In this document: positions 11,791 to 64,000 of the stretch, one piece after another | How positions within the stretch are numbered: the stretch's first letter is position 1 | Layout: every line of letters starts with the position of its first letter | Source of the DNA: Salinimicrobium tongyeongense | GTDB taxonomy: Bacteria > Bacteroidota > Bacteroidia > Flavobacteriales > Flavobacteriaceae | Direction of reading: 5' to 3' | Length of the DNA: 64,000 bases | Assembly: GCF_026109735.1 (NCBI RefSeq) | Contig: NZ_CP069620.1 | Coordinates: 1,364,001 to 1,428,000 of the forward strand | Notes under the pieces: generated by a model | What the model saw: only the letters and a program-made list of their open reading frames with translations | What the model was told of the DNA's origin: nothing | Databases searched by the model: none | Position numbers and translations under genes: made by a program

Positions 11791-11849
11791 ATTTTTGAGC
11801 TGTTGGCCATTAGCTGTTAACCTTTGGCTTTGATTCTACAGATAAAATT

Positions 11850-11985
11850 AGGCTAAAGCCCTCTCCATCAAATTTCAAAAACCACGGGCTGAAGCCCGTG
11901 GCAATCCATCTTAAACTTTAATAATGAATTGCCTCCGGCTTCAGCCGGAGGATAAAAGAAGGATCTCTCTCCAGGGCTTTAGCCC
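11850..11985. repeat. REP-like palindromic repeat pair in inverted orientation
   Basis: Two units face each other. Unit 1 (plus): box AGGCTAAAGCCCT at about 11850, hairpin CCACGGGC-TGAA-GCCCGTGG at 11882-11901, tail CAATCCAT. Unit 2 (minus): tail complement TGAATTG at 11925, hairpin with CCTCCGGC stem at 11932-11951, box GGGCTTTAGCCC at 11974-11985. Box-to-hairpin spacing is 32 and 34 bases, the same as in the array at the right end of the window, but no transposase gene is present here. Confidence 0.85.
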
Positions 11986-12048
11986 AAAAATGCTTCAAAG
12001 CACCGGAGGAGCGAATATTTCTAGCTGGTTTTTATTTTTTTTACAAAC

Positions 12049-63030: not shown

Positions 63031-63041
63031 AAGGTTTATTT

Positions 63042-63205
63042 GGGCTAAAGCCCTTGTTCTACAATTCCAATGATCCTCCGCCTGAAGGCGGAGGCAATTT
63101 AGAATTCAATCAATTAAAGAATTCATTTTATAATTGTGCTTCACATAAATTGCCACTGGCTTCAGCCAGTGGTTTAAAATCAAAATATAGTCAGGTCTTT
63201 AGCCC
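63042..63205. repeat. REP-like inverted pair left of the transposase
   Basis: Plus unit: box GGGCTAAAGCCC (63042-63053), hairpin CCTCCGCC-TGAA-GGCGGAGG (63075-63094), tail CAATTT. Minus unit: hairpin with CCACTGGC stem (63153-63172), tail complement AATTG just before it, box GGTCTTTAGCCC (63194-63205, one mismatch). Box-to-hairpin spacing is 33 bases in both. The layout equals that at 11850-11985. Confidence 0.9.
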
Positions 63206-63648
63206 AATTTATCCTCCCCAAAATTTGTGAAATTATAATTCTTTATGAATTCATCATATTCCTCCTGAAATGATTTTTTTGTGTGATGCTCTTCCTGATT
63301 TTTAATATAATCTCTCACAACATTTAGTTTGGATTCCGAAACAGAAACAGCGAAATAATCATTCTGCCATTCAAATTTTTGGGTGGTTAAGTTATTTTTG
63401 TTGATCCAATGGGAAGATTCTCCTTTTATCAAATTAACCACCTTTTGAATGCTTTGATCTACTCCTAATGAAACAAGACAATGACAATGATCTGCATATC
63501 CATTGACAAAGTCTACAAAAATTCCTTTGAATCTTGCATTTTCAGCAATATGCCGCCAAACCTTTTTCCGAATTTCAGGAGAATTAAGAAATGGAACCCT
63601 GTTTTTGGTGCTCCAGACAAAATGAATGTAAACCTTTATGTGAGGCAT
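63199..63648 (-). CDS. IS200/IS605-type Y1 HUH transposase (REP-associated/RAYT-like)
   Basis: 149 residues, cytoplasmic. N-terminal YIHFVWSTKNRVPF, HUH motif as H54-C-H56 in YADHCHCLVS, and catalytic Tyr114 in VRDYIKNQEEHH; F/W-rich EWQNDYFAVSVSESK sits before it. These enzymes cut and join single-stranded DNA at hairpin ends. The gene is intact, has no accompanying tnpB, and its last codons and stop (K-L-G-stop) are written by a repeat box. Domesticated RAYT and a simple IS200-like element both remain possible. Confidence 0.88.
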   Translation of the reverse strand: MPHIKVYIHFVWSTKNRVPFLNSPEIRKKVWRHIAENARFKGIFVDFVNGYADHCHCLVSLGVDQSIQKVVNLIKGESSHWINKNNLTTQKFEWQNDYFAVSVSESKLNVVRDYIKNQEEHHTKKSFQEEYDEFIKNYNFTNFGEDKLG

Positions 63649-63705
63649 AAAGTTGATCTAATTAGCTGAAGATGAATTTAATAAATTAATCTGAGACAAA
63701 AAATT

Positions 63706-64000
63706 GGGCTAAAGCCCTTATTTTATTCTTTTTATTCTTAATCCTCCGCCTAAAGGCGGAGGCTATTCATAATAAATTTCTCATTTTTGTTGGACCAAAG
63801 CTCTTTTTTCCCATTCCCAATCCTCTGCCTAAGGGCAGAGGCAATTCATAAAAACCTCCTTCTTTTAAATCAAAAGACTTTCATTTCCCATTAAATTGAT
63901 CCCAAAGTTGGGCTAAAGCCCTGTCTTATTTTCAATCCAAATCCTCCGCCTAAAGGCGGAGGCAATTCATAGATTTTGATTTTCATGAATTGCCACTGGC
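63706..64000 (+). repeat. REP-like array right of the transposase: three direct units and a partial inverted one
   Basis: Units: box 63706-63717 with hairpin 63743-63762; degenerate box GGACCAAAGCTC 63792-63803 with hairpin CCTCTGCC-TAAG-GGCAGAGG 63822-63841; box 63910-63921 with hairpin 63943-63962. Tails CTATTCAT, CAATTCAT, CAATTCAT follow. An inverted unit begins at 63985 (TGAATTGCCACTGGC) and is cut by the window end. Box-to-hairpin distances are 37, 30 and 33. There is no gene in this 352-base stretch. Confidence 0.9.

Follow-up and report, generated by a model that had tools for sequence, protein, structure and literature searches.

Subclass 1.2 of the TnpA-Y1 transposases was newly described by Quentin 2018 as a group of ∼148 aa proteins found mostly in Cyanobacteria and Bacteroidetes, at low copy number and generally without the typical terminal structures of IS200, and Table 1 of that paper, in the part available to us, lists it with REP "no" (PMC6006769). 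The automatic search for REPs used in that survey, which was complemented by manual inspection, needed a GT[AG]G-type head and for that reason would miss a two-hairpin unit such as the one reported here (PMC6006769, available passages). In IS608, guide sequences 5′ of the hairpins set the cut sites, and GTAG may be the REP equivalent of these guides (PMC8266576, available passages). We found no published description of the present repeats in the open-access literature, a scope that leaves preprints and most subscription papers aside. A matching string in the available part of Nunvar 2010 (PMC2817692) belongs to a GTAG repeat of Haemophilus influenzae and not to the two-hairpin unit, and the available passages of a Chryseobacterium paper place "RayT" genes near a resistance gene and mention no repeats (PMC11194056).

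The locus described here lies at the end of a 64,000-nt stretch of the Salinimicrobium tongyeongense chromosome (NZ_CP069620.1, positions 1,364,001 to 1,428,000), the whole of which we call the window. We consider it likely that this locus represents a REPtron-like system of TnpA-Y1 subclass 1.2 in which an asymmetric two-hairpin unit is the cognate substrate of the transposase, TnpA. The initial annotation of this DNA had proposed a system comparable to REP/RAYT with a different, two-hairpin unit, and the dispersed copies, inverted flanking units, co-divergence, BIME-like arrays, and lack of a GTAG head described below all bear this proposal out.

The transposase gene and the units around it

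The gene tnpA occupies positions 63199..63648 on the minus strand and encodes a Y1 HUH transposase of 149 aa with the motifs DHCH, WQ, and YIKNQEEHH. It had been annotated as intact, with H54-C55-H56 and Y114, and it is: the protein matches PF01797 with 95.8 bits (E 2.6e-27), and an alignment of 32 rows shows no variation at H54, H56, Y114, Q118, H121, or H122. The NCBIfam IS200 model scores 63.6 bits (cut-off 55), while the RAYT model NF047646 scores 28.5 bits (cut-off 80), and the tyrosine motif is Y114-x3-Q118, not the Y-x3-NP of RAYTs. Because the RAYT score falls below its cut-off and the tyrosine motif is Y-x3-Q, TnpA is, as judged from its sequence, closer to IS200/IS605 than to RAYTs and no RAYT by family; by its motifs and length it is a member of subclass 1.2. 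All 32 homologues match the IS200 model, and 30 of the 32 match the RAYT model too (E ≤ 0.01). An AlphaFold model (pLDDT 87.7) has the HUH-Tyr fold, as in the TnpA of IS200/IS605. A sequence comparison with the PDB points to IS608, ISDra2, and further small transposases, and a Foldseek search with the model places IS608, ISDra2, and other small transposases at ranks 1–29, with TnpA_REP (4er8) at rank 30. The rmsd is 4.4 for 4er8 versus 4.9–17 for ranks 1–29, a lower value that may stem from the use of a monomer model and that carries no weight as evidence. The cognate tnpA is single-copy in its own genome, a low copy number that matches subclass 1.2; two other Y1 genes with the subclass 1.2 signature, 46% and 35% identical to TnpA, bring their number in this genome to three. 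PADLOC gave no match to a defence system, the 156 pattern matches among viral contigs included 0 relatives, and a plasmid search returned 28 records with a top identity of 40%.

Units were located with two covariance models: R1, trained on 18 units from the own genome, and R2, for which 35 units were taken from elsewhere, with the own genome excluded and 1 row coming from a congener. As first annotated, tnpA lies between two blocks of a repeated unit. Downstream of the gene there are two copies, which face opposite ways, and upstream there are four, all direct except the last; the repeated unit of the earlier picture stands, and the array is corrected in that two of its six units are inverted. 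Downstream of the gene are unit 1 (63036..63108, plus strand; R1 74.6 bits, R2 E 1.8e-15) and the inverted unit 2 (63139..63211, minus strand; R1 75.8 bits, R2 E 2e-14), whose box overlaps the 3′ end of tnpA. Upstream are unit 3 (63700..63776, plus; R1 77.8 bits, R2 E 2.8e-17), unit 4 with the degenerate box GGACCAAAGCTC (63786..63855, plus; R1 49.3 bits, R2 E 1.7e-6), unit 5 (63904..63976, plus; R1 82.4 bits, R2 E 2.3e-16), and the start of the inverted unit 6 (63979..64000, minus; R1 70.2 bits, R2 56.4 bits), which extends ∼50 nt beyond the window end and in full spans chromosome coordinates 1427979-1428050 (R1). A dispersed pair lies between a protease-like ORF and atpC, one member at 11844..11915 (plus; R1 64.3 bits, R2 E 6.4e-13) and the other, inverted, at 11918..11991 (minus; R1 75.1 bits, R2 E 8e-17). 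On the window, R2 recovers five array units, with match borders at 63037-63102 (plus), 63145-63210 (minus), 63701-63770 (plus), 63787-63849 (plus, the degenerate one), and 63905-63970 (plus), and the inverted pair near atpC at 11845-11990, with E values from 3e-17 to 2e-6. Another palindrome, CGCTCCTCCGGAGCT, adjoins two-hairpin units downstream of atpC in several copies (L195-L199).

The unit is ∼70 nt long and consists of a TTGGGC-TAAA-GCCC box, ∼21 nt, an 8-bp hairpin CCNNNNNN-TRAA-NNNNNNGG (H2), and the tail CAATTCAT. The annotated plan of box, A/T-rich spacer, 8-bp hairpin, and tail is confirmed by R2, a model built on other genomes, and the short box is conserved to the same degree as the long hairpin. 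The stop codon of tnpA, TAA, sits in the loop of the downstream box, which here carries one mismatch, GGGCTAAAGACC. In the alignment of 18 own-genome units, 97% of the paired cells can pair, versus ≤54% when partner columns are slid by 1–3 positions; these units had been selected for pairing, so the evidence is the covariation, with five of the eight long-stem pairs changed on both sides, and not the paired percentage. One of five whole-structure measures, that of further pair types, fails to exceed shuffles in this alignment. DNA folding of one unit gives two hairpins at -13 kcal/mol (z -3.1), with 4 of 200 shuffles equally good. Within the window, GGGCTAAAGCCC with ≤1 mismatch matches seven times versus 0.50 expected, a count reached by 0 of 100 shuffles; one of these seven matches is the core of a long hairpin and not a box. 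An AATT-type head is found on the outer side of both hairpins, 5′ AATTGGGC at the box and 5′ ATGAATTGCC at the long hairpin (opposite strand); read on the proper strand, the own-genome heads face outward and are AATTG-GGC for the box and ATGAATTG-CC for H2, and the head of the box varies more in hosts from other phyla. A GT[AG]G tetranucleotide is absent from the hairpin foot. The conserved flanks are AATT and CAATTCAT, which agrees with the annotated conserved tail in place of a GTAG foot.

Across the 3.51-Mb chromosome, R1 finds 19 strong units (E ≤ 5e-8) at seven places, six of them at tnpA, a count that is circular in part, since 18 of the 19 formed the R1 training set; R2 recovers all 19, though trained elsewhere. 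The cognate tnpA is present at one of the seven places. Fixed IS ends only, as an account of the units, is ruled out: 13 of the 19 strong units lie away from tnpA. Among 18 units checked, 17 lie outside ORFs of at least 100 aa, and one overlaps only the end of tnpA (∼10 nt). Palindromes flank every one of the four Y1 genes in this genome, upstream and downstream, and by eye they differ in kind from gene to gene. The second transposase, 46% identical to TnpA, has a different repeat type and is flanked by two weak R1 matches (E 4e-4 and 5e-3). A third repeat type, approximately AGCCCTGNNAGGGGCRTRATATG, flanks the third Y1 gene on both sides (L007:1380-1490, 1940-2050). A class-2 Y1 gene (NHFH, YIHLNP; own genome C1:1237702) is flanked by ACCTAACAGGTCTTGAAGACCTGTTAGGT-like palindromes (L008:1297-1887), and by motif it resembles subclass 2.1, which is REP-less according to the available part of Quentin 2018 (PMC6006769).

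Repeats beside related transposases

The relatives were sampled as the best 80 of at least 472 found among genome contigs. Across these 80 loci, the subclass 1.2 signature appears as DHxH in 67 and HxH after a different residue in 13, WQ in 80, and Y-x3-Q-x2-HH in 78. The 46.8 kb that lie no more than 300 nt from tnpA contain 183 hairpins of at least 7 bp (3.91/kb), versus 68 for the non-coding DNA elsewhere (67.4 kb, 1.01/kb) and 93 for the coding DNA (444 kb, 0.21/kb), and a hairpin is present at 73 of the 80 tnpA loci versus 34 of 192 control gaps. Two kinds of repeat predominate. The type A box GGCTWWAGCC occurs 132 times in 63.1 kb within 400 nt of tnpA versus 8 times in 511 kb more than 1 kb away, a density ∼130 times higher near the gene, and type B cores such as ACCGTTTTAACGGT and CGGTTTAAACCG occur 74 times near tnpA versus 7 times far from it; both patterns were chosen after inspection of the flanks, so these ratios are descriptions and no blind test. 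By these labels, 45 loci are A, 24 are B, 2 are both, and 9 are neither, which leaves 71 of 80 with a repeat within 400 nt. Among the hosts labelled A are, by record title, Bacteroidota, Acidobacteriota, Ignavibacteriota, Fidelibacterota, KSB1, and a planctomycete, many of them MAGs.

For unit extraction, box and loop were accepted in both senses, but the score of the script favored a CAATT-like tail; at most two units per locus were kept. The resulting set holds 71 units from 42 loci with 47 distinct long-stem arms. The box GGCTAAAGCC is present in all 71, always reading TAAA along the direction of the long hairpin; the long-hairpin loop is TRAA (TAAA or TGAA) in 69, and the spacers between box and hairpin are mostly 19–25 nt, with a median of 22. 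In an alignment of 35 units, those behind R2, one per locus and picked for pairing, double changes occur at every one of the eight pairs in the long stem, and covariation scores 0.67 versus ≤0.11 for slid versions.

The orientation of the units around the gene follows a pattern. Thirty-six of the 47 A-box loci have a downstream box within 400 nt (the nearest reading TAAA in 29 and TTTA in 6), and 36 have an upstream box within the same distance (TTTA in 31, TAAA in 5); the remaining loci are mixed or lack a box in that range. Because the nearest upstream box is mostly TTTA and the nearest downstream box mostly TAAA, the usual order of the locus, as read from these sequences, is tail-H2-box-[tnpA]-box-H2-tail. 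The stop codon of tnpA lies inside the box loop in 12 of the 47 loci, and the box coincides with the reading frame in 17, some frames stopping a few codons earlier.

This layout bears on a reading that makes the unit a mini-IS, formed when a deletion fused a left end (the box) to a right end (the long hairpin), with the whole element of tnpA and its ends still moving as an ordinary IS. The protein belongs to class 1 and its best solved relatives are IS608 and ISDra2, the two dissimilar hairpins recall left and right ends, and the box is bound to the 3′ end of tnpA, all of which would fit; we nevertheless regard this reading as unlikely, given that complete inverted units rather than half units flank tnpA. 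Moreover, the cognate gene (≥81% identity), present in 4 of 12 genomes of the genus, adjoins mfd in all four; it is single-copy in its own genome, with the other two relatives only 35–46% identical; and subclass 1.2 is reported to be without shared IS properties in the available part of Quentin 2018 (PMC6006769).

Two further features of the sampled loci deserve mention. Tandem arrays of the loop end, 3′ H2 arm, and tail, 12–19 nt long and in 3–7 copies, lie within 1 kb of tnpA in L041, L042, L038, L027, L048, and others (17 nt × 6.9 in L042, 19 nt × 5.3 in L041); such copies may be traces of breaks close to the loop and the tail, caused either by TnpA or by slippage. Separately, a umuC-like (Y-family polymerase) motif lies downstream of tnpA in 6 of the 80 loci, with an S24 (umuD-like) motif upstream in five of the six. 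These umuD-tnpA-umuC type loci are L037, L038, L042, L044, L045, and L048, with Pfam support in L037 and L044, and a tnpA placed between umuD-like and umuC-like genes may be induced together with them in the SOS response.

We placed the 80 relatives and three TnpA of the own genome on one tree of 83 rows. One of its branches, supported at 100/97, sets a group of 28 (24 B, 2 both, 2 other) apart from the other 55 (46 A, 8 other, 1 B). Repeat type changes 11 times on this tree versus a shuffled mean of 32.2, with 0 of 200 shuffles as low, figures to be read with the caveats that close kin cluster any label, that the alignment columns are few, and that the bootstrap has not settled. From this distribution, transposase and repeat appear to have diverged together. 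Type B palindromes, whose cores include AACCGTTTTAACGGTT, CCCACGGTTTAAACCGTGGG, and AAATGGTTAAAACCATTT, lie beside sister-clade transposases in distant Bacteroidota (L005:1300-1400, 1870-1980; B-labelled loci among L073-L104). One flank of the own-genome clade-B gene (L005) scores 48 bits on R2, the A model, an indication that type B is built on the two-hairpin plan as well.

Dispersal of the units and presence of the gene

R2 was applied to 40 host genomes from the set of 80, hand-picked before the search so that 20 carry an A gene and 20 a B gene. The A genomes hold 3 to at least 130 units (median 18; two genomes with at least 130), counts that carry a bias of R2 toward A, as 18 of these 20 genomes supplied one training unit each. 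Outside the tnpA locus they hold 0 to at least 125 units (median 13.5), with at least one in 19 of 20 and at least four in 17 of 20; one genome has 0 beyond the locus and two have 1. The B genomes, with all units counted, have a median of 0.5; ten of the 20 have none, and six have 49, 39, 26, 9, 4, and 3 (A units outside the locus versus all B units, Mann-Whitney p 3e-4). No A-type gene was present in three stretches examined, from two of the six unit-bearing B genomes. Since the own-genome B flank scores 48 bits, some of the R2 matches in B genomes could stem from B units that the A model picks up.

Within the genus, complete genomes with the cognate gene hold 20, 45, 23, and 31 R1 units and those without it hold 2, 5, 25, 10, 11, and 11, and two incomplete genomes hold 7 and 0 (with versus without the gene, p 0.019; 0.024 when the R1 training genome is dropped). 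The expectation that units track the transposase clade therefore stands in part: genomes without the gene have fewer units on average, but congener G003 has 25 units and no cognate gene, and 6 of the 20 B genomes have 3–49. Family-wide, among 149 genomes of 148 genera, the gene is found at E ≤ 1e-40 in one and R1 units at E ≤ 1e-6 in four, two of which belong to the window's own genus; these counts are too small for statistics and come from stricter filters and a model tuned to one genus.

Individual sites can be followed between congeners. R1 units at mfd-pdeM are absent from the seven scanned congener loci without tnpA, six of which were also read by eye; two such gaps (L181, L182) hold other small ORFs, toxin-antitoxin-like by eye. 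At another gene, units are present in nine of ten genus loci, counting the own locus and one weak case; G002 alone lacks them. Units at orthologous places persist in congeners without tnpA. Our reading of these comparisons is that the unit population is probably old and outlives its enzyme. Many unit sites in the genus look ancestral, and therefore current activity may be low. In G005, 16 alternating units make up an array in which an inverted pair of 233 bp is repeated 7.9 times; its close congener G008 carries a single pair at this place, a difference that we read as a sign of amplification. Presence/absence differences of units are seen, and a pair absent from a close congener has ragged borders; a clean empty site, sought at mfd-pdeM, atpC, a second junction, and G005 versus G008, was not found with precise borders.

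Persistence without the gene is what would be expected if the units were spread or kept in other ways, such as recombination, replication slippage, or structural use by the host, and TnpA were a domesticated bystander. Unequal recombination could likewise grow arrays, and the tandem copies of half-hairpin and tail resemble slippage. We find this explanation improbable all the same, for the unit density at tnpA is ∼130 times background, the repeat co-diverges with the TnpA clade, and genomes with the cognate clade hold more units. That the unit is an RNA element (sRNA, riboswitch, or terminator) with no tie to transposition is very improbable: its stems covary and terminator-like hairpins precede some units, but four loci gave no Rfam family at gathering score, the window array gave nothing above sub-threshold matches, both orientations and inverted pairs occur, the stem has no following T-run, and the units are linked to tnpA.

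Proposed mechanism and comparison with known systems

From the conserved architecture, covariation, linkage to tnpA, dispersal, co-divergence, and tandem array of inverted pairs documented in these comparative data, we infer that TnpA processes the units. It would act as a single-strand HUH nuclease-ligase whose cognate substrate is a short GGC-TAAA-GCC hairpin followed by ∼22 nt and an 8-bp stem of free sequence with a TRAA loop. Because the heads sit where the guide sequences of IS200/IS605 ends and the GTAG of REPs sit, TnpA is predicted, in the simplest model, to recognise loop and head, leaving the stem sequence free, and to cut near the heads. Units that become single-stranded, for example on the lagging strand, would be folded by TnpA, cut, and rejoined; copies would be seeded and amplified when a single unit, or two as an inverted pair, undergo strand transfer. 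After loss of tnpA, old copies would persist by vertical descent.

A wider scenario can be offered only tentatively, and we rate it as somewhat doubtful: that this is a second, independent passage from an IS200-type transposase to a repeat-amplifying enzyme; that left- and right-end hairpins stayed joined in one asymmetric unit, an intermediate between IS and REP; that at least two lineages (A and B) use different hairpin codes; and that in some hosts tnpA was placed inside an SOS operon, umuD-tnpA-umuC. If TnpA does process the two-hairpin unit, an orphan subclass listed as REP-less gains a likely substrate, with fixed box, loop, and head and a free stem. REP/REPtron biology would then reach past GTAG and class 2 to class 1 enzymes, in Bacteroidota and several other phyla. 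The system would be a possible intermediate in the domestication of insertion sequences into repeat makers. As the A and B clades are tied to different repeats, recognition is testable by swapping.

Among described systems, subclass 1.2 itself agrees in length, DHxH, WQ, YIKNQ-x-HH, low copy number, and occurrence in Bacteroidetes (PMC6006769); where the available part of that paper gives REP "no", 71 of the 80 members sampled here have a repeat within 400 nt, some of them in other phyla. IS200/IS605 elements (IS608, ISDra2) provide the closest solved structures and the same fold of a hairpin-recognising single-strand DNA transposase, but here inverted complete units, not one left and one right end, flank the gene, and many units stand alone beside a single cognate gene copy in the own genome. 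Subclass 2.6 of Bacteroidetes also has its gene flanked by atypical palindromes without GTAG and differs in its class 2 motifs NHxH and YIHxNP and its length of ∼179 aa (PMC6006769, available passages). RAYT/TnpA_REP systems (Nunvar 2010; Quentin 2018 subclasses 2.2 and 2.5, in the parts available) share a Y1 HUH enzyme whose gene lies between inverted palindromes, and with their REPs, BIMEs, and REPINs they share dispersed extragenic copies and enzyme-repeat co-evolution. The inverted pairs and tandem arrays of pairs are also as in the REPINs and BIMEs of proteobacteria (PMC2817692, PMC3733652, available passages). The enzyme here is of class 1.2, with Y-x3-Q-x2-HH instead of Y-x3-NP, and the repeat has no GTAG/GTGG head and is an asymmetric pair of unlike hairpins. 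On sequence grounds, then, this is a system that appears to work like REP/RAYT, a REPtron with BIMEs, but with another class of enzyme and another unit.
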